Virus record (IMG/VR): IMGVR_UViG_3300017991_000008
Location: 1 to 64,000 of that record
Length of the DNA stretch: 64,000 nucleotides
From: a virus
Direction: 5' to 3' (one strand)
The translations under genes were made by a program, and so were the position numbers. Positions 2,810 through 14,669 of the stretch are shown piece by piece. The notes beneath the pieces were generated by a model. That model was not told the origin of the DNA. It saw only the letters and a program-made list of their open reading frames with translations, and made no database searches. The first letter of the stretch is position 1; each line of letters starts with the position of its first letter.

Positions 2810-3313
2810 ATGGAATTCGGTACTGTACTCGGGATCGACCCTGGGTTAAACGCAGGCTGGGCCGTGGGCTCCGTAGAGGCAAAGGTCCGTGTGTTGGAGT
2901 GGGGAGTAATAAAAACCCGAGACAAGCCAGTTACGGGGCTCGTAAAGGAGTTGTGCAGGTATCCTATCGGGTTGGCGGTAATAGAACAGCAATACCTGGA
3001 CGAGGGTGACAGAAGAAATCCTAGATCGGTAATAAGGACAGCTCAACTGGCTGGCAGATGGGAGGAGGCTTTGCTACTGGCTGGGATCCCTTTCACCTGG
3101 GTCCTAGCCTCCAAATGGCAAGGGAAGATGCTCAAGGGGTTAGTTAACACCTATAGTGGCAAGAGCGACGACAGAAAGAGAGCAGCCAAATTCCTGGTGA
3201 AGGCCAGGTGGGGCATGGATTTACCCAGTGACGCAGCCGACGCCGTTTTAATCATGGCGTACCAGGCTGAATTGCTCTGGTTTGAGAAATTTAGAAAAAA
3301 TAAGAAAAAGTAA
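2810..3313 (+). CDS. RuvC-like Holliday-junction resolvase
   Basis: 167 residues with the RuvC/RNase H-fold signature: GIDPG with D10, AVIEQ with E59, and DAADAV with D141 and D144. This four-acid arrangement and spacing match the catalytic site of RuvC (D7, E66, D138, D141 in E. coli). Phage members of this family resolve four-way junctions and branched replication intermediates before packaging. The C-terminus is Lys-rich. ATG 2810 follows the upstream stop directly, and the gene ends the first operon: a promoter-like sequence lies just downstream. All four catalytic acids are present, so it is probably active. Confidence 0.88.
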   Translation: MEFGTVLGIDPGLNAGWAVGSVEAKVRVLEWGVIKTRDKPVTGLVKELCRYPIGLAVIEQQYLDEGDRRNPRSVIRTAQLAGRWEEALLLAGIPFTWVLASKWQGKMLKGLVNTYSGKSDDRKRAAKFLVKARWGMDLPSDAADAVLIMAYQAELLWFEKFRKNKKK

Positions 3314-3322
3314 AAAGGTCAG

Positions 3323-3357
3323 TTGACATAGAAAGGATCGTGTCATACAAGTATAAG
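3323..3357 (+). promoter_or_regulatory. sigma70-type promoter, TTGACA-N17-TACAAG followed by TATAAG
   Basis: Perfect -35 TTGACA at 3323-3328, a 17-base spacer, TACAAG at 3346-3351, and a directly adjacent TATAAG. It lies in the 91-base gap after the RuvC-like gene and before GTG 3405. The same arrangement, including the extra TATAA directly after the -10, occurs at 62881-62915, which strengthens the call. It probably starts transcription of the 3405-6545 cluster. Confidence 0.65.
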
Positions 3358-3404
3358 ACGGAGGGGAACCGGAAGACAGTGACCTATAGCAAAGGAGACC
3401 GCCA

Positions 3405-3764
3405 GTGTTAACAGACAAGGAGTTTCAACGTCTGCTCAAGGAAACCCCACCTGTTTTGCTTTTGGGAGAATCCAAAAACAAAAAGGGACAGAAGAGTTCT
3501 AGAATACACCTGGTATTGACCAGTGCTGACAATCTGGTCATGTTACGATATCAGCGGAAGTTCTGGGATACTCTTTGCAAAAAGCAAGAAGACTACGTGA
3601 AGCGGGCTGGATTACATTTGCTTAATCCACACCCTGTGAAAATGACCGAAGATCTCAGTTCTCAATTGTGTCCAAGGTGTGTACATTTTGCACGCCGGTT
3701 ACTATCAGCCAGGAAGTCAATAAATGGAGGGACTATCCGATATTTGGAGGAACACCATGTTTAG
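3405..3764 (+). CDS. hypothetical protein, 119 aa
   Basis: GTG start with AAAGGAG 7 bases upstream, the first gene after the 3323 promoter. The chain is basic and mixed alpha/beta; a CPRC pair near residue 90 precedes a helical, Arg-rich end. No family recognised. Confidence 0.65.
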   Translation: MLTDKEFQRLLKETPPVLLLGESKNKKGQKSSRIHLVLTSADNLVMLRYQRKFWDTLCKKQEDYVKRAGLHLLNPHPVKMTEDLSSQLCPRCVHFARRLLSARKSINGGTIRYLEEHHV

Positions 3765-3945
3765 GTGCCGAAGGATGTATTGTTCAAACGGGGTTGAGTG
3801 TATGGAGGAGTGCAGGGACGAGCACGAGGTGGACCCCGAGTACCTGATAGAGCAGGCCGAGTTCATGTCCGACCTGGAAATGGACCGGGTGGCAGATGAG
3901 TATTTTGACCAGCGTGAGCAAATGCTAGACAGGAACAGACCATGA
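3757..3945 (+). CDS. small acidic Cys-containing protein, 62 aa
   Basis: Start chosen at ATG 3757 because GGAGG lies 6 bases upstream; the frame is also open from ATG 3724, which would overlap the previous gene by 41 bases. The first 20 residues hold four cysteines (FRCRR, YCSNG, ECMEEC) and the remainder is acidic and helical. Function unknown. Confidence 0.6.
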   Translation: MFRCRRMYCSNGVECMEECRDEHEVDPEYLIEQAEFMSDLEMDRVADEYFDQREQMLDRNRP

Positions 3946-4232
3946 TAGACAAGGACATTTTAAACGGGCTCACCACCGAGAGGTCCAAACGGGCATACAA
4001 ACGGCTATGCGCTGCCGCAGAAGGGTCCATGGAGAAGTTGGCAGCGTCGGTCAAAAAGAGACACGAACTTTCCTGGTCAGAGGAGTTTGCCATGCGGTGT
4101 CAGTTGGAAGCACACAAGTTAGAGCACCACCGTAATGCGGTGACAACGGCATTACAGGTGGAATTTTTGGAAGTGCAGATGCAGGCCATCGTTGCTACAA
4201 TTGCAGCAGAGATCCAAGAGAGAACCGCATGA
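3942..4232 (+). CDS. hypothetical helical protein, 96 aa
   Basis: ATGA overlap on both sides (3942 and 4229). The sequence is almost wholly alpha-helical, with a basic first third and a long amphipathic helix at about residues 45-92 that could be a coiled coil. No recognised family. Confidence 0.65.
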   Translation: MIDKDILNGLTTERSKRAYKRLCAAAEGSMEKLAASVKKRHELSWSEEFAMRCQLEAHKLEHHRNAVTTALQVEFLEVQMQAIVATIAAEIQERTA

Positions 4233-4579
4233 GCAAAAAGAAAAAGAAGATAAACGGGAAGGTCATACATTTGAAAGATATATCCCAGTGTCAACACAGG
4301 GATTTTGATCTTCATGCCGTGGTGAACGACATTACCGAAAAAGACGAAGGGCCGGTGGTGGGCCGGTGTTTATCGGTATCGATTACCTGTGCCGAATGTG
4401 GGGTTCCTTTTGCCTTTGAGGGGCTCCCTGCGGCGAAGTCTCACCTGGTACCGTCTATGACTACCAGTGGGCTCGAAGCCAGGTTGCCGATTTCGCCATC
4501 GGCGGGAGAACAGAGGGTAAAACCTGTGAAGGACATCCTAGATGACACGGTGAAGTTCACTGTACAGAAGGACGAATAA
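4229..4579 (+). CDS. conserved hypothetical protein with CAECG metal site
   Basis: ATGA overlap with the upstream gene; starts with a Lys run. It contains C-x-H near residue 21, then ITCAECGVPFAFEGLP and a LEARLPISP motif. I recognise this combination (a histidine/cysteine pair, C-x2-C-G-x-PF-x-F-x-GLP, then E-x-RLPI-P) as a widespread bacterial and phage small-protein family without a known function. A zinc-binding fold is likely. Confidence 0.65.
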   Translation: MSKKKKKINGKVIHLKDISQCQHRDFDLHAVVNDITEKDEGPVVGRCLSVSITCAECGVPFAFEGLPAAKSHLVPSMTTSGLEARLPISPSAGEQRVKPVKDILDDTVKFTVQKDE

Positions 4580-4884
4580 TGAGTGGCGAACCCCTTCCAT
4601 GTCCTTTTTGTGCGTGTTTGAATACATGGGTCACATGTCATCAGTTTGAACACTTTGTTGTCTGTAATGAGTGTCAGGCCCAAGGGCCAAAATGTAAGAC
4701 ATCTGAAGAGGCTGTTCGTCGATGGGATAATCGGGTCGGGGTAAAGGTACTGGCGCCCAGCAACACTTGTCGGGACTGTGGGATTAGCTTTAGTTCAATC
4801 TATCACGAAGGCTACAACCAGGTTGAAAAGAATGGTCGTTGTGCCAAGTGTAGTAGTCGGGCAGATGATTTATCTGATCTATAG
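4579..4884 (+). CDS. Lar-like restriction-alleviation zinc protein
   Basis: Starts in a TAATG junction. The first 50 residues follow the Lar family pattern: PCPFC, CNECQAQGP, then T-x-EEA-x2-RWDNR. A second cysteine set, CRDCG ... CAKC, fills the C-terminus, giving two ribbons in 101 residues. Lar of the Rac prophage relieves type I restriction; whether this protein does so is inference from family resemblance only. Confidence 0.65.
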   Translation: MSGEPLPCPFCACLNTWVTCHQFEHFVVCNECQAQGPKCKTSEEAVRRWDNRVGVKVLAPSNTCRDCGISFSSIYHEGYNQVEKNGRCAKCSSRADDLSDL

Positions 4885-4918
4885 GAATTTTAAGATACCG
4901 GAATTTGGAGGGAAGGAC

Positions 4919-5419
4919 ATGTTGGAAATAAAAGAACGGATCCAGGAAAAAATAAGAAGACTTGAAATAGAAGAGGCAAAGATCCTTGGCCAGCTACACT
5001 CGGTGCAAGAGAAGCTGGAACTTCTCCGCGAGTTGCTCAGTGATGCCGGGGCAAAAGATGCCACGGAATTTCAAAAGAAATCTGCACCGGCTACCAAATC
5101 CAGGAGATACAAGCGGTCGCCCAAGAATCGCAAGGTCACAAAGTCTTCAAACCGGAAGTCACGGATTGAGCCCATCATGAAAATATTGGGGGAGAATCAG
5201 GACAAGTGGCAAACGGCTATGAAGGTGACAGAAGATGGGATCAGGCGAGGTCTCTTTGAGAAAGAGACGTCTGGAAGTAGTAGGATTGAAGACATAATCA
5301 GAATGTCTCTAATAAGGTTAGCCCAGACCAAAAACCCACCGATTGAAACCAAATACAAAGACGGGAAGCGGTTATTTAGAATTAAGCAAGTGGGGGCAGA
5401 ACCGATACCACAGAAGTGA
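4919..5419 (+). CDS. coiled-coil plus winged-helix-like DNA-binding protein
   Basis: Start set at ATG 4919 behind GGAGGGAAGGAC; an upstream in-frame ATG (4778) would overlap the Lar-like gene by 107 bases. Residues 1-45 form a clear heptad coiled coil. Residues 55-90 are a Lys/Arg/Ser linker, and residues 92-160 look like a winged helix (RIEPIMKIL ... RIEDIIRMSLIRL ... KRLFRIK). The layout suggests a dimeric DNA-binding regulator, but no specific family is recognised. Confidence 0.65.
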   Translation: MLEIKERIQEKIRRLEIEEAKILGQLHSVQEKLELLRELLSDAGAKDATEFQKKSAPATKSRRYKRSPKNRKVTKSSNRKSRIEPIMKILGENQDKWQTAMKVTEDGIRRGLFEKETSGSSRIEDIIRMSLIRLAQTKNPPIETKYKDGKRLFRIKQVGAEPIPQK

Positions 5420-5443
5420 CAAGTAACTGGTAGGCCGGTCAGG

Positions 5444-5881
5444 GTGGCTCGGCGTGATTTGCGGCAACAGCCGGGATCCGCCCGTCCTGTTACGGTACCA
5501 GCCAAAAAAATGACAAAAATGTCTATTAAAAAAGGTCAAACCGAATACCCTGAGAAAATAAGACGTCCCCAAAATAGATCCGAGTGTGCCGATATTCCCA
5601 GGCCGTGTCCATTTGTTGGGTGTATTCACAATCTCTACCTGGACGTAAACGAAGAGACCGGTTCTATTAAGTACAATTTCCCAGATCTGGAACCGTGGGA
5701 TATGCAGGAGTCTTGTGCTCTGGATATAGCTGACGAGGTGGGGGATCTTACTCTCGAGAACACAGGAGGGATCATTAATCTAACCAGAGAACGAATTCGT
5801 CAATTAGAAGTGAGTGCCATGGGTAAACTGAAGCAGGACAAAACCCTGCAAGAGCTCTACGCGGAGGGTGTCGATAGGTAG
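5444..5881 (+). CDS. sigma-factor region-4-like DNA-binding regulator
   Basis: 145 residues. After a basic, probably disordered 45-residue N-terminus comes [17 protein letters not shown] and [10 protein letters not shown]. The C-terminal DNA-binding segment [19 protein letters not shown] (about residues 110-130) matches the recognition helix of sigma70 region 4 ([10 protein letters not shown]-x-A-x-x-KL). I recall such stand-alone proteins from phages and deltaproteobacterial genomes. It may redirect host RNA polymerase or act as an activator. The start is uncertain: GTG 5444 lacks a good ribosome site, and ATG 5510 in the same frame is possible. Confidence 0.7.
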
Positions 5882-5898
5882 ATGACTAAGGAAGAAAA

Positions 5899-6111
5899 AT
5901 GAAGATCGGAGAAGTATGGCGAAAACACGGGCCAATGGGATGGGTAAAGGTCGTGGAGTTTTGCTTTGACGACGATAAGTTTCCAGGTGTTTGGATTAGG
6001 TTTGGAGGTTCTCATGCATGGGACTACAGCAAGACTTTTTTTTGGCCCTGCACCAATTACCGGGCATTTTGTAATGACCAAAAAAGACACCTTCGATACA
6101 AGCAGGAATGA
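5899..6111 (+). CDS. hypothetical protein, 70 aa
   Basis: ATG 5899 behind AAGGAAGAAAA. Small, Trp/Phe/Gly-rich beta-type sequence with a basic C-terminus. A run of eight T at about 6037-6044 lies inside the gene. No family recognised. Confidence 0.55.
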   Translation: MKIGEVWRKHGPMGWVKVVEFCFDDDKFPGVWIRFGGSHAWDYSKTFFWPCTNYRAFCNDQKRHLRYKQE

Positions 6112-6117
6112 AATAGC

Positions 6118-6318
6118 ATGCAGTTTATTATAATAATTCTCAGCATGTATCTGTTTGCAGGTTTGGTGTTCTTTTTGTGGGCGGTGCGCCACTTCAACCC
6201 TAAAATCATTCAGGGATTCCCGGCGAGGCTTCCGTTCCCATGGAACTGTGTAGTGGCTCTATTCTTGTCCTTTTTGATCGTGGTGTTTACCTGGCCGCTT
6301 TTATGGTCAGACCTATGA
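6118..6318 (+). CDS. small integral membrane protein, two TM helices
   Basis: 66 residues with hydrophobic segments at about 2-23 and 42-62 separated by a basic loop. There is no signal-peptide cleavage site. It ends in an ATGA overlap with the next gene. A holin-like role is possible from its size and topology but nothing else supports it; the lysis genes lie 50 kb away. Confidence 0.55.
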   Translation: MQFIIIILSMYLFAGLVFFLWAVRHFNPKIIQGFPARLPFPWNCVVALFLSFLIVVFTWPLLWSDL

Positions 6319-6545
6319 AAACTGTTTACTATAAGCAATGCTCGCTCGAGACGGACGACGGGAGAACACACTATCAGTGCTGGCTGCCCACCCGATACGC
6401 CGTGAAGGGTAAGAAGGTTCGAATCACCCGGTATCCGCACACCCTGTGGAATATCACCACGGTTTTTCCAACAGCTATAAGCGAAGAAAGCCTTCGGAAC
6501 TACGGAGAGGCCCACCGGTACCACCGGCAGGTGACTGATATTTGA
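6315..6545 (+). CDS. hypothetical protein, 76 aa
   Basis: Start chosen at ATG 6315 (ATGA overlap with the membrane-protein gene); the frame is open further upstream. The chain looks like a small beta-barrel of SH3 type (WLPTRYAVKGKKVRI near residues 24-38). The pattern is common in short phage proteins of unknown role. Confidence 0.6.
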   Translation: MKTVYYKQCSLETDDGRTHYQCWLPTRYAVKGKKVRITRYPHTLWNITTVFPTAISEESLRNYGEAHRYHRQVTDI

Positions 6546-6751
6546 TCTGCTTGCTTGGCTGTGGTACATATTAACCAATGGCAACAGCCAGAAGTTTTGA
6601 TTGATTGACACAACCCTTTTGAAGCTAAGAACAAGCAAAGGAGCCCGGTCACACACTGTGGGGCCGGCGTGTGTTCCTCTCAACAGACATCCAGTCATCT
6701 TATGTGGTAGAATCCAGCATACTCAAACGCAAATGGTCGAAAGGATTGGAT
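6546..6751 (+). other. non-coding gap with inverted repeats
   Basis: About 206 bases without a convincing gene. It holds TGGCTGT (about 6555) facing ACAGCCA (about 6585), with an inner TGGT/ACCA pair. A CACAC/GTGTG pair lies near 6650-6670. TTGACA at 6604 has no good -10 at 16-18 bases. The likely content is an untranslated leader for the gene at 6752. Confidence 0.35.
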
Positions 6752-7430: not shown

Positions 7431-7479
7431 GGAGAGGATCTTTTTTCTGTTCATGCGTTAGTTTTTCCCTTCTCCAAAC

Positions 7480-7517
7480 GGCCACGGTTTTGCTAACCGT
7501 GGTCGTTGCTTTTGGAT
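7480..7517 (+). terminator. hairpin, possible rho-independent terminator or attenuator
   Basis: GGCCACGGTT (7480-7489) pairs with AACCGTGGTC (7495-7504) through 10 base pairs, one of them G-U, around a 5-base loop. The following TCGTTGCTTTT is only moderately T-rich. It could end the upstream transcript or attenuate one starting at the 7402 promoter. Confidence 0.5.
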
Positions 7518-7567: not shown

Positions 7568-7660
7568 ATGGTCAAACAAATCATTCAAAAAGAAGGGGTG
7601 TCTGTCTGTCATTGGTTCCCAATAATGGACGCGGTGCTCTGTTCTCTGGTAATAATTTAG
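7568..7660 (+). CDS. short upstream reading frame in the speD leader (30 aa)
   Basis: ATG 7568 has the best ribosome site in this leader (GAGGG at 7556-7560, 7 bases upstream). The frame ends at TAG 7658-7660, two bases before ATG 7663 of the AdoMet decarboxylase, which itself lacks a clear ribosome site. The 30-residue product is hydrophobic toward its end (AVLCSLVII). The arrangement fits translational coupling, and possibly a regulatory leader peptide. The peptide has no recognised relatives and could be incidental. Confidence 0.4.
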   Translation: MVKQIIQKEGVSVCHWFPIMDAVLCSLVII

Positions 7661-7662
7661 AC

Positions 7663-7992
7663 ATGTTGACCACGAAACATCTTATGATGCAGGTTTTTGC
7701 GGAAGACGATATGATTGGCAATGAGCGCCTAATGTACAACACACTTCTGGATGCTGTACATGCGGCAGGTGGACACGTGGTGGGGTGTACGAAGCATGAA
7801 TTTGATCCCATAGGACTGTCTTCGGTGGTTCTGTTGGCTGATTCTCATGCCAGTCTACATACCTGGCCCGAAGAGAATCTTGGGCTGGTAGATTATTTCA
7901 GTTGCGCTGTGAATCCCAACTTCGACGAATTTGTAAAGACATGGGAAGATAGGGGGTTTTTGATCAATGGGAGGCAGGAGATCGAGAGGTGA
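7663..7992 (+). CDS. speD: S-adenosylmethionine decarboxylase-like pyruvoyl enzyme (SpeD family)
   Basis: 109 residues from ATG 7663, which gives MLTTKH, equivalent to the usual LGxH start of the short bacterial class. The TTG at 7612 adds 17 residues without family character. The self-cleaving centre is ADSHASLHTWPE: S61 would become the pyruvoyl group. H66, E70, C81 (FSC) and S53 keep the spacing of the Thermotoga enzyme (S63, H68, E72, C83, S55). The family normally has Glu before the cleaved Ser; here it is Asp (D60). Known role: decarboxylating AdoMet to supply aminopropyl groups for spermidine; some family members instead decarboxylate arginine or ornithine. No spermidine synthase or ornithine decarboxylase lies in the window. 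The GTGA overlap with 7989 places it at the head of the packaging operon. Confidence 0.85.
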   Translation: MLTTKHLMMQVFAEDDMIGNERLMYNTLLDAVHAAGGHVVGCTKHEFDPIGLSSVVLLADSHASLHTWPEENLGLVDYFSCAVNPNFDEFVKTWEDRGFLINGRQEIER

Positions 7993-8255
7993 GCGATCAG
8001 AAGACACTCTTTCCTCAGATGCCGAGCATAGAGACTCCCCGTTTCACCAGGAAGGCACATCAGGTTCTGGTATTCACGAGGGGGCCGACGGGGTGCTTGG
8101 TGTGTAAAGGCTCTATAAACGGGGTAGACGGTCCACCATCGGAGGAACTGATACTTAAGACCGTGTCAGATAAAGGCTGGAAGGTGGAGCGAATTGAGGC
8201 CAAGGGGGCGGACTCCACATATCCTTTCTTTGTCCATGTGGTGTGTCATGGCTGA
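7989..8255 (+). CDS. hypothetical protein between speD and terL, 88 aa
   Basis: GTG start overlapping the speD stop. CLVCKG near residue 36 and VHVVCHG at the end give Cys/His positions that could bind a metal. It sits where a small terminase subunit is often found, but I see no helix-turn-helix, so I do not call it terS. It overlaps terL by 8 bases. Confidence 0.6.
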   Translation: MSDQKTLFPQMPSIETPRFTRKAHQVLVFTRGPTGCLVCKGSINGVDGPPSEELILKTVSDKGWKVERIEAKGADSTYPFFVHVVCHG

Positions 8256-9837
8256 GTACGCGATTGACTACACAAAAGTCGGCAGATTACATCCCGACTT
8301 TCATCCACCCGTAAGACACCTTCACCTGCTCACCGATTTTGTTCCATCCTTAAATAAAAAGAAACTTACAGGACCGGCAGAGATAATCGATCTCAGGCTA
8401 GAGCGTCTTCGACGGTTACACCTGTCCCAGTGCTTGGAAGATTTCGGAGCCTTTCTAGAATATTGCTTTGTTGACACGGAAACCAGGGAGCCTTTTGAGG
8501 TTCAGTGGTTTCACGAGGAATGGATCCAGGCATTTAAAGATCATCAGAACACCATGATTATCGCACCGAGGTCTCATGGTAAGACGGCGATCATCGTTGC
8601 TTATATGGTCTGGCGATTAGGGAAGGATCCCAACCTACGGATCAAGATAGCCGCTGAGACCGACAAAACAGCTCGCAAACGGTTGTCAGAGGTCAAGGAC
8701 CATATTGAGAGAAACAAACGGGTCCACGAGGTATTTCCTCATTTAAAACCGGGTCGTAAATGGGATCAGGGCATGATCGAGGTTCGCAGGTCCATTATCG
8801 ACAAGGAACCGAGCATAGAGGCAGTGGGTGTTTTGACCGGCTGTACTGGTTCTCGAGCGGACTTATTGATAGCGGACGACGTTGTGGGGCGTCGTAATTC
8901 ATTGACGATACCGGCAAACAGGGAGAAGGTAACCCAAGCATGGGAAGATGACTGGTTGAATATGGTGGATGATACCTCGCAGATCATCTACATTTGCACC
9001 CTGTGGCACCGGGACGATAACAGTCACAAGATGATGAAAACCGGTGCGTATCACACGTTATTTTACGCAATACCGGACGACTTTGGCTCCATGTGGCCGG
9101 GTAGATGGTCCGAAAGGGCACTTAGGTTAAAACGCAAGAAACTGAGTTCAGCGGCGTGGGCCAGGGGCTACAAGAACCAGCCACAAGATGAGAAGACAAA
9201 ACCAATTCAGGAAGCCTGGATCGAGTTTGCCAACTTGAGAGAACTGGGACTGGATCCAAAGGCATTGACCTGGGTGGTATCCTACGACTTGGCAACCAAG
9301 CTAAAAGAATCGAACGACTATTATGCATCGGTTGTTTTTGCTGTGGATAAGTTCAACCGCAAGGTGTACGTGGTTGACGCTTGGCATGCGCGTCTGAGAC
9401 CTGCCCAGCAAGAAAAGATGGTTTACAAGGAATACATCAGATATGAACCATGGCGCATCTTCATGGAGATAGTAGGTCAGGCAAATCTGGACATGAGATG
9501 TGAGGAGCGGTGGCCAGAGCTCGGAAGGATAATCGAGCCGGTGAACCCAACGGGGCAGGGTTCAAAATACGAAAGACTTATGAACGTCACGCCAATGGTG
9601 GAGAACGGCCAGGTGATATTCTCACACAAGCTGGACCCGGAGTGGGAAGGGTTTGACCATTCCCGGGGCTCTTTGTATAACGAGCTTGTCGATTTCCCCT
9701 TGGCAGACCACGACGATATGACAGATGCATTTTCCCAGGGGCTATCTAAGATAATCTTCTATCTTCTTGACCGTTGGTCTGATAGTGATGACAATGAGAT
9801 GAACATCGAAGTTCTCGACACAGGAGGAATTATATGA
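8248..9837 (+). CDS. terL: terminase large subunit
   Basis: Start placed at ATG 8248, inside the end of the preceding gene; 18 codons upstream are open but overlap that gene heavily. 529 residues. The N-terminal ATPase shows Walker A APRSHGKT (106-113) and Walker B LLIADD (206-211). A coupling-motif-like segment (IYICTLWHRDD) follows near residue 247. The C-terminal RNase H-fold nuclease begins at VVSYDLA with D347, and ADHDDMTDA near the end carries further acids. It translocates and cuts DNA at the portal. The gene is followed by an ATGA overlap and the portal gene. No convincing small subunit was found. Confidence 0.92.
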   Translation: MAEYAIDYTKVGRLHPDFHPPVRHLHLLTDFVPSLNKKKLTGPAEIIDLRLERLRRLHLSQCLEDFGAFLEYCFVDTETREPFEVQWFHEEWIQAFKDHQNTMIIAPRSHGKTAIIVAYMVWRLGKDPNLRIKIAAETDKTARKRLSEVKDHIERNKRVHEVFPHLKPGRKWDQGMIEVRRSIIDKEPSIEAVGVLTGCTGSRADLLIADDVVGRRNSLTIPANREKVTQAWEDDWLNMVDDTSQIIYICTLWHRDDNSHKMMKTGAYHTLFYAIPDDFGSMWPGRWSERALRLKRKKLSSAAWARGYKNQPQDEKTKPIQEAWIEFANLRELGLDPKALTWVVSYDLATKLKESNDYYASVVFAVDKFNRKVYVVDAWHARLRPAQQEKMVYKEYIRYEPWRIFMEIVGQANLDMRCEERWPELGRIIEPVNPTGQGSKYERLMNVTPMVENGQVIFSHKLDPEWEGFDHSRGSLYNELVDFPLADHDDMTDAFSQGLSKIIFYLLDRWSDSDDNEMNIEVLDTGGII

Positions 9838-12374: not shown

Positions 12375-14669
12375 GTGTGTGACCTTTGTCAAATAGGATT
12401 CTCACACGAGACCGGGGGATTTGTTGTTCCAAAATTTCATTTGGATTTGGGCAAGAACTTCAAGACAGCAAAGACTACCACGAACTCAAAAGACCTACCC
12501 AAGCAGGCCCAAAGACTGGGCGTACTAAATGGCAAGTTGACCGTATTACCCAGGGGAACCACCATGGCCAAAGCCAGGTTGAAGGCCAAGGGAGGTGGCA
12601 CTGTTGTTCAATCGGTAGCAAAGAATGAAAACGGGTTGGTTATTTGGGAGAAGCTCGAGAAGATAGATAGCAATGCCGACGGTGCTCCAGTAGATCATGA
12701 CGGGATCGTACTGTGCAAGGTAGCCCGACCAGGGGAACAGATAACCAGCATCTCCAACCAGTTGGCAAACGAACTGGCTTACCAGGATCGCAAGTGGGTG
12801 GCACCTTACTTGAAGAAGTTCTTGGAGCAGTTAGAGGGGATTAACTGGGACACAGAAAAGGACATCAGGAAAGCTTTTGCTAAGGCTGAGAGGGTACTGC
12901 GTAACGCCAATGTTGAACCGTTGGTCAAACCGTGGGTACAACGTGTGGAGATATATGGCCAACGCTCCGCCAGAGACGGACGACAATGGCTCAGACAGGC
13001 GTTTCTTCCTCGAATATCTGGTAGCCTAACCGGAGCAGACAAGAAGGCTGTTGGGGCGGTATCTACGCAGCAGGGGTGGTTTCTCAGGGATATGACAGGA
13101 AGGAGAGCGGATAACCTCACCGCAAGGGGGCGAGAGATAGTGCAGGCTGGACTTCGGGATGGACTCGGGAAGCAGGCCATTGCTGATCAACTAAAATTAG
13201 CCATGCCCGATCTGTGGAACAAGTACGGCAACCAATACGCCCAGGTCTGTGCATCGGTAGCGGTAAACAGAGCACGATCCGTTGCCATGGTTAATTCTTA
13301 CCAGGAAGCCGGGATCCAAGAACTAGAGATTACAGCGGTGCTGGACCAAAGAACAACAGAGCAGTGCCGTTTCATGGACGGTCAGATAATCAGTGTAGAG
13401 GGGTGTGCGGAAGTGATAAACGCCACCGCCGAAATGGAATCCCCAGAGGACATCTACACCACTAACCCGTTCATTCATGTACAGAGAAACGAACAGGGCA
13501 TCAAGGAGCTTGTGACAGCACGTGGGGACAAACTGGCGGAGATAGTACGATCCGGCTATGGTAGATTGGACGACCGTGGGGTTCACCGACAGTTCATATC
13601 CGGTCGCAACCTGCCATCGGCTGCCTCAATCGGGATGCCCCCTTATCACCACCTCTGTAGAACCACCACGGTTCCCGTCTTTCGAAGCTTTCAGGTGCCT
13701 CGAAATTACATGGCAAGATCTATTCAGGGTCCGTCACCGATACCTCAGACGGTGTATACTTTGGCCAGGTTGACCGGTTTGAAAGCAAACAGACCCGTTG
13801 ACCGTCCATTTACACTAATTAAAGAACCCAAACCGACAAAACCGGTGGAGGTTGGATACAAAGACCCGGCTACTGGGGATCCCTATGTAAGAGACGGTCT
13901 ACTCGCGGAGGAGGATCTGGTCGATCAGGTAAAAGAGAGAACGACCAGGGCTATTCAGCAATTACAAAACGAGGTTACAGAAGCAATAAGGAGCAACGCC
14001 GGGAGAACTCTATCCCAAAAACAAAAAGGCACCGTGTTGAAAAACGCCATAAGAAAAGGGGCCGGTGGCACCGTGTTAGAAAAGGCTGAAATCAGATTGT
14101 CTGACCGGGAGCAGGGGGACATGTTCTATGGTGAGCAACGGAAGATCATTAAACTTCTCAAGTCGGTGTTAGGGGACCGTCTCATAAAAACCATAGCCAG
14201 AAGGAAGTTCCCCAGGGTGATCGAAGATACATCCAACAAGGTGAGACCGAAGGGTTCTTGGGATGGAAAGGTTCTTACTTTGCCGAGGTCTGGTACCCAG
14301 AGGGCCGACTCGATAATTGTCGAAACTGTAACGAAGTACTTGGACACATTTGGAAAGAACGGTAGGGCTGGCGTGCTTGCCAGGAATGGATCATGTATTG
14401 GGGGAAATCTGATTACTCAAACCGGTGACGTTTTCATACCTATTCGCAATTCTGATTGGAGATGTGGTCGGGTGTATGGGAACACCGATAGCGTCAAAGC
14501 CGTTGGTCCCTGGGATGTTATTGGTGGATCACCAGAGGCAAACGATTGGTCGTCCATAGGCAATTCCGCATTAACAGATGGACAGGAGGACCGGCTCGCG
14601 CTACTATGGGACATGAATCCTGACCATGTTGGATTCATCGCTTCTTACATTGAAGGGCAGTTCGTGTGA
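12375..14669 (+). CDS. head morphogenesis protein (MuF / SPP1 gp7-like) with C-terminal extension
   Basis: 764 residues from GTG 12375; the first residues hold a CDLC pair. The middle part (about 200-440) is MuF/SPP1 gp7-like: AGLRDGLGKQAIADQL, VNRARSVAMVNSY, LDQRTTEQCRFMDGQ and the closing PPYHHLCRTTTVPV, with conserved Cys/His positions. These minor head proteins contact the portal and travel with the DNA. About 300 residues follow the domain: a Pro/Lys-rich linker, a helical stretch at about 515-590, then a Gly-rich mixed domain. MuF proteins often carry effector-like C-termini; I cannot identify this one. Confidence 0.8.
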   Translation: MCDLCQIGFSHETGGFVVPKFHLDLGKNFKTAKTTTNSKDLPKQAQRLGVLNGKLTVLPRGTTMAKARLKAKGGGTVVQSVAKNENGLVIWEKLEKIDSNADGAPVDHDGIVLCKVARPGEQITSISNQLANELAYQDRKWVAPYLKKFLEQLEGINWDTEKDIRKAFAKAERVLRNANVEPLVKPWVQRVEIYGQRSARDGRQWLRQAFLPRISGSLTGADKKAVGAVSTQQGWFLRDMTGRRADNLTARGREIVQAGLRDGLGKQAIADQLKLAMPDLWNKYGNQYAQVCASVAVNRARSVAMVNSYQEAGIQELEITAVLDQRTTEQCRFMDGQIISVEGCAEVINATAEMESPEDIYTTNPFIHVQRNEQGIKELVTARGDKLAEIVRSGYGRLDDRGVHRQFISGRNLPSAASIGMPPYHHLCRTTTVPVFRSFQVPRNYMARSIQGPSPIPQTVYTLARLTGLKANRPVDRPFTLIKEPKPTKPVEVGYKDPATGDPYVRDGLLAEEDLVDQVKERTTRAIQQLQNEVTEAIRSNAGRTLSQKQKGTVLKNAIRKGAGGTVLEKAEIRLSDREQGDMFYGEQRKIIKLLKSVLGDRLIKTIARRKFPRVIEDTSNKVRPKGSWDGKVLTLPRSGTQRADSIIVETVTKYLDTFGKNGRAGVLARNGSCIGGNLITQTGDVFIPIRNSDWRCGRVYGNTDSVKAVGPWDVIGGSPEANDWSSIGNSALTDGQEDRLALLWDMNPDHVGFIASYIEGQFV

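Follow-up and report, generated by a model that had tools for sequence, protein, structure and literature searches.

The window analysed here comprises the first 64,000 nucleotides of a virus record that is 95,380 bp in full. The 109-aa ORF listed as speD in Table 1 encodes the proenzyme of a class 1b S-adenosylmethionine (AdoMet) decarboxylase, SpeD. The protein matched the Pfam family AdoMet_dc (1.6e-17, 64.2 bits, for a curated cut-off of 25), PHROG 3125, 'S-adenosylmethionine decarboxylase' (5.1e-19), and the Thermotoga maritima enzyme (PDB 1TLU, 5.6e-13). A family HMM made without the phage protein gave it 75.9 bits, and 2000 shuffles reached at most 7.1 bits; the match to the SpeD family is far beyond chance. 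Only AdoMet_dc and SpeD families matched the protein, and no homology to T3 SAMase or SAM lyase was detected. An alternative TTG start at 7612 would give a protein of 126 aa, and comparison with the family favours the ATG at 7663.

Residues S53, D60, S61, H66, E70 and C81 are all found with conserved spacing. Among 63 relatives, 14 columns are conserved in 90% or more of the sequences; in 13 of these the phage SpeD carries the same residue, for an overall identity of about 30%; the only departing column is position 53, where Ser replaces Thr, as it does in T. maritima. The AlphaFold2 model, computed from a 64-sequence alignment, had a mean pLDDT of 96.3 and a pTM of 0.89 (from the single sequence alone, the model was poor, with a pLDDT of 62), and its five top PDB matches were AdoMet decarboxylases of T. 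maritima and Aquifex aeolicus, the first being the T. maritima proenzyme 1VR7 (TM 0.83). The original prediction, made from the sequence alone, had announced a short phage-encoded pyruvoyl AdoMet decarboxylase in this ORF, its residues S53, S61, H66, E70 and C81, and an Asp rather than the usual Glu before the self-cleaving serine; all of this was confirmed. The protein is nevertheless isolated, since its highest identity to any relative found is about 36% and no close relative was found in IMG/VR.

Table 1. Features of the speD locus (window coordinates) and of the DNA-modification gene set (record coordinates)
Feature	Position	Strand	Evidence
Terminator-like hairpin upstream of the operon	7477..7507	+	13 pairs, T-rich tail; region -36 kcal/mol, z -3.5
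30-codon ORF, possible translational coupler	7568..7660	+	Shine-Dalgarno GAGGGTGA; function putative
speD-like gene for the proenzyme of a class 1b S-adenosylmethionine decarboxylase, 109 aa	7663..7992	+	Pfam, PHROG, PDB, model
Asp60-Ser61 codons, predicted self-cleavage site (Ser61 would become the pyruvoyl group)	7840..7845	+	Sequence; alignment with T. maritima E62-S63
L65-H66-T67-W68-P69-E70 codons, catalytic His and W-P-E substrate-pocket residues	7855..7872	+	Sequence comparison
Cys81 codon, equivalent of T. maritima C83	7903..7905	+	Alignment; C83 is the catalytic Cys according to PMC10407285
ORF88, 88 aa, between speD and terL, no family match	7989..8255	+	ORF list, family searches
terL, terminase large subunit	8248..9837	+	PHROG 38 (1.4e-84); phage tblastn hits
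7-deazaguanine set: QueD (82052-82507), QueE, FolE, Gat-QueC fusion, DpdA-like protein (PHROG 887)	record 82052-86071		

The terminator-like hairpin, the 30-codon ORF, speD, ORF88 and terL stand in that order, and we therefore place speD at the opening of the packaging operon. Three overlapping ORFs start with speD, which shares 4 nt with ORF88; ORF88 in turn shares 8 nt with terL. The original prediction of a packaging operon starting with speD is thus borne out by the hairpin upstream and by the overlapping ORFs that lead into a confirmed terL. The ATG of speD has no obvious Shine-Dalgarno sequence of its own and lies 2 nt past the stop of the 30-codon ORF, so that speD is possibly under translational coupling or leader control from this ORF; the encoded peptide is MVKQIIQKEGVSVCHWFPIMDAVLCSLVII, for which no relative is known. 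An Rfam scan of the window gave no match.

The collections searched hold almost no relatives of this phage lineage. No close relative of its TerL was found in IMG/VR, and the capsid protein led to a single IMG/VR relative (60% identity). On this contig, terL keeps its place in the gene order, the genes ahead of it are different ones and speD is absent; therefore, speD is accessory at the site upstream of terL, and its tie with packaging is not conserved. A weak search, in which one divergent TerL was used as query, detected no terL homologue beside the other phage SpeD loci that were examined. Another speD in a virion-structure module is that of the Moorella phage MTATph1, where the genes on both sides are annotated as major head protein. 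It was also observed that the capsid-related contig encodes, at 3269-6691, a Mu F-like head protein with an apparent intein-like insert (CFSGSTMVATPWGEKRIDRINAGDYVF ... VVHN), which is missing from the homologous protein of the window (12375-14669).

The occurrence of Asp before the self-cleaving serine was followed with pattern scans. A degenerate pattern for the Asp variant was found in 72 viral contigs, all of them SpeD by HMM, and in 29 contigs from the genomes of 84,980 species, 12 of which were SpeD. A scan with the related family pattern gave at least 596 confirmed viral loci, and by these patterns the share of Asp among viral SpeD proteins is at most roughly one in eight. By these pattern matches, the Asp variant is thus rare among cellular genomes, whereas it recurs in viruses. 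A single Asp clade was rejected (AU test, p 4.8e-6), and parsimony required at least 5 Glu/Asp changes in a small tree and 13 in a large one; therefore, the exchange happens repeatedly. Because Asp recurs in 72 viral contigs, we did not treat Glu at this position as defining for SpeD. No published assay of a SpeD with Asp before the serine was found in the literature. Taken together, Asp for Glu is a recurrent swap, probably tolerated and harmless rather than a change of function. The original prediction had singled out Asp as noteworthy; with 72 viral contigs, at least 12 cellular loci and several origins, this part of the interpretation did not stand. The identity of the gene and its place at the start of the packaging operon were supported. 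A different departure was seen in SpeD homologues from Atribacteria, Thermodesulfatator and a Herbaspirillum MAG, in which E/D-SH..HTWPE is kept and the catalytic Cys is missing (e.g. ASLDIFLQAG); in one of these loci, the gene adjoins a spermidine-synthase-like ORF.

Residues F47, W68, P69 and E70 of the phage SpeD correspond to T. maritima F49, W70, P71 and E72, of which F49, W70 and E72 bind the adenosine moiety of AdoMet. SpeDC-type proteins have other residues in place of the Trp, Pro and Glu of this W-P-E pocket. In PMC10407285, SpeDC (the ODC group) has four diagnostic residues, Gln, Thr, Phe and Tyr, a proline is described as conserved in true AdoMet decarboxylases and not in SpeDA, and SpeDA is given several origins and no firm signature. 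We mapped the SpeDC diagnostic positions on speD-speDC-speE clusters of Atribacteria (motif QLIETSxISGHF...Y); none of the four residues is present in the phage SpeD at the positions deduced from Atribacteria SpeDC and viral homologues. Both P49 and P69 are kept, the cited text leaving unspecified which proline is meant. Thr precedes the serine in the Atribacteria SpeDC clusters, in viral homologues of the ornithine decarboxylase type and in a protein of pelagiphage HTVC115P, an apparent relative of the pelagiphage HTVC201P enzyme, for which arginine decarboxylase activity was shown (PMC9992855). A guessed SpeDC motif, QSHxTxHTFPE, had no viral match and was dropped in favour of the real motif from the Atribacteria clusters. 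In four viral contigs with an ESH-type SpeD pattern, a SpeDC-type protein was seen as well, with QLIETSNICAHF as its ETS motif; these contigs are candidates for phages that encode both AdoMet and ornithine decarboxylase types.

In two careful trees, built from 39 and 35 proteins, the phage SpeD was placed among phage and bacterial AdoMet decarboxylases, and the branches that part it from the ornithine/arginine decarboxylase (ODC/ADC) clade had supports of 100/98 and 96/91 in one tree, and 99/98 and 97/90 in the other. However, forcing it into the ODC/ADC clade was not rejected (AU p 0.26), and with a larger quick tree the topology that holds the two together was even better; large quick trees were uninformative on its placement. 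The phage SpeD is on a long branch, and its exact neighbour shifts with sampling: it was weakly associated with the Asp variants of Asgard archaea (81/80), where long branches meet, and moved beside a phage SpeD when these were removed. An archaeal host, which the Asgard-like motif had led us to consider, was rejected on account of the phage genes for a peptidoglycan amidase, a DnaB helicase and a sigma-70 region 4 protein. The family tree and structure model that had been proposed as a check of the original prediction thus give an AdoMet decarboxylase fold and a position on the AdoMet decarboxylase side, a position to be read with the unrejected ODC/ADC placement in mind. The argument on the substrate is carried by the residues, not by the tree. 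Likewise, because of the long branch and of an identity of at most about 36%, the functional assignment rests on residues and not on a close tested homologue.

From these results, we consider it quite probable that speD is an auxiliary metabolic gene of the phage and encodes a divergent, catalytically active class 1b AdoMet decarboxylase that feeds the host spermidine synthase, Asp being tolerated in place of Glu. The proenzyme would cut itself between Asp60 and Ser61, turning Ser61 into the pyruvoyl group, and the mature enzyme would decarboxylate AdoMet; host spermidine synthase would then couple the product to host putrescine, which may keep spermidine up as host expression falls. Given its first place in the packaging operon, SpeD is probably made alongside the virion-assembly genes, and spermidine could therefore serve late translation, DNA condensation or both. 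Neither a spermidine synthase (PF01564) nor an Orn/Arg decarboxylase of family PF02784 was found anywhere in the 95,380-bp record, which extends the reported absence of speE and speC from the window. Phage-encoded class 1b SpeD proteins are already published: those of S-PM2, phiYs40, phiN3 and P2559s restored spermidine in an Escherichia coli speD mutant (PMC9992855), and the present gene is a divergent member of this known family. Phage JG004 was unable to infect a Pseudomonas aeruginosa speD mutant, and neutralization of DNA charge was proposed (PMC3120641). Among the three hypotheses of the original prediction, a rise in spermidine by way of host enzymes has the best support, its use on packaged DNA being putative.

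The other two were the decarboxylation of arginine or ornithine and the depletion of AdoMet. Phage enzymes of the SpeDC/SpeDA sort exist (PMC9992855), and a neofunctionalized homologue that gives putrescine or agmatine would fit both the lack of SpeE in the record and the ODC/ADC placement permitted by the AU test and the larger quick tree. Such an activity is nevertheless unlikely here, as it is disfavoured by the missing SpeDC residues, by Asp where the ODC/ADC clade and the HTVC115P protein have Thr, by the presence of both prolines, one of which is not conserved in SpeDA, and by the careful trees, the AU value not being strictly against it. It is improbable that the long branch reflects a substrate shift independent of SpeDA and SpeDC, to arginine, ornithine or another amino acid, with W-P-E kept and the enzyme deployed with the packaging genes. 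A degraded, inactive relic would also account for the long branch, and for a C-terminus of 28 residues past Cys81 compared with about 47 in T. maritima. This explanation is improbable: at the positions conserved in 90% or more of the relatives, the phage SpeD has the same residue or a conservative replacement in spite of an overall identity of about 30%, confidence in the model stays high up to the C-terminal end (pLDDT 94 for the final block), and several other phage SpeD proteins are also about 108-113 aa long.

Draining AdoMet to blunt host methylation and restriction would follow the example of the phage T3 SAMase, an established strategy (PMC7877911, PMC8406200). However, the phage has AdoMet users of its own, a C5-cytosine methylase (record 89466-90899) and two radical-SAM proteins. 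In addition, speD lies in the packaging, presumably late, operon and not in an early region, and pyruvoyl AdoMet decarboxylases turn over slowly. A complete dG+ type 7-deazaguanine set is encoded beyond the window (Table 1); the same combination leads to dG+ in phage 9g, and the pathway should already protect the phage DNA (PMC6884629), which is probably archaeosine-modified since the set is complete. Because of these AdoMet-dependent enzymes and of this DNA-modification pathway, depletion of AdoMet appears very unlikely. A regulatory or structural role without catalysis would suit the position of speD ahead of terL, and catalytically dead AdoMet decarboxylase paralogues with regulatory roles, such as the prozyme, are known in trypanosomes (PMC5201418), but every catalytic residue is present in the phage SpeD, no host SpeD partner could be identified and nothing positively supports such a role, which we regard as extremely improbable.

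The S-PM2 SpeD (phage class 1b, PHROG 3125; PMC9992855) is of similar size (110 aa, compared with 109), and the S-PM2 type shares the catalytic residues, the W-P-E pocket and a stand-alone gene without spermidine synthase. Identity is about 30% to S-PM2 and 33-36% to S-RIM44 over 80-96 columns, and the present gene differs by its Asp, by a non-cyanophage lineage and by its location directly upstream of the ORF88-terL gene pair. The T. maritima enzyme (1TLU, 1VR7) has the same fold and the equivalents S55, S63, H68, E72 and C83, with the same Ser at its position 55, but it is bacterial, has a longer C-terminus and carries Glu62 before the serine. With the pyruvoyl ornithine and arginine decarboxylases SpeDC and SpeDA, the superfamily and the cleavage chemistry are common (PMC10407285); SpeDC differs by Thr before the serine, by the lack of W-P-E and by its diagnostic residues, none of these features being found in the phage SpeD. 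The Asp variants of Sigynarchaeota and other Asgard archaea share the local motif LADSHAxLHTWPEE; they are archaeal chromosome genes, and their grouping with the phage SpeD is not robust. In conclusion, a divergent, non-cyanophage member joins the published phage AdoMet decarboxylases. Glu and Asp before the pyruvoyl serine switch repeatedly, so that Asp alone is no sign of a changed function, whereas Thr marks the ornithine/arginine decarboxylase side of the tree. Expression of speD with the packaging operon, if shown, would provide a test of whether phages raise spermidine specifically for packaging.
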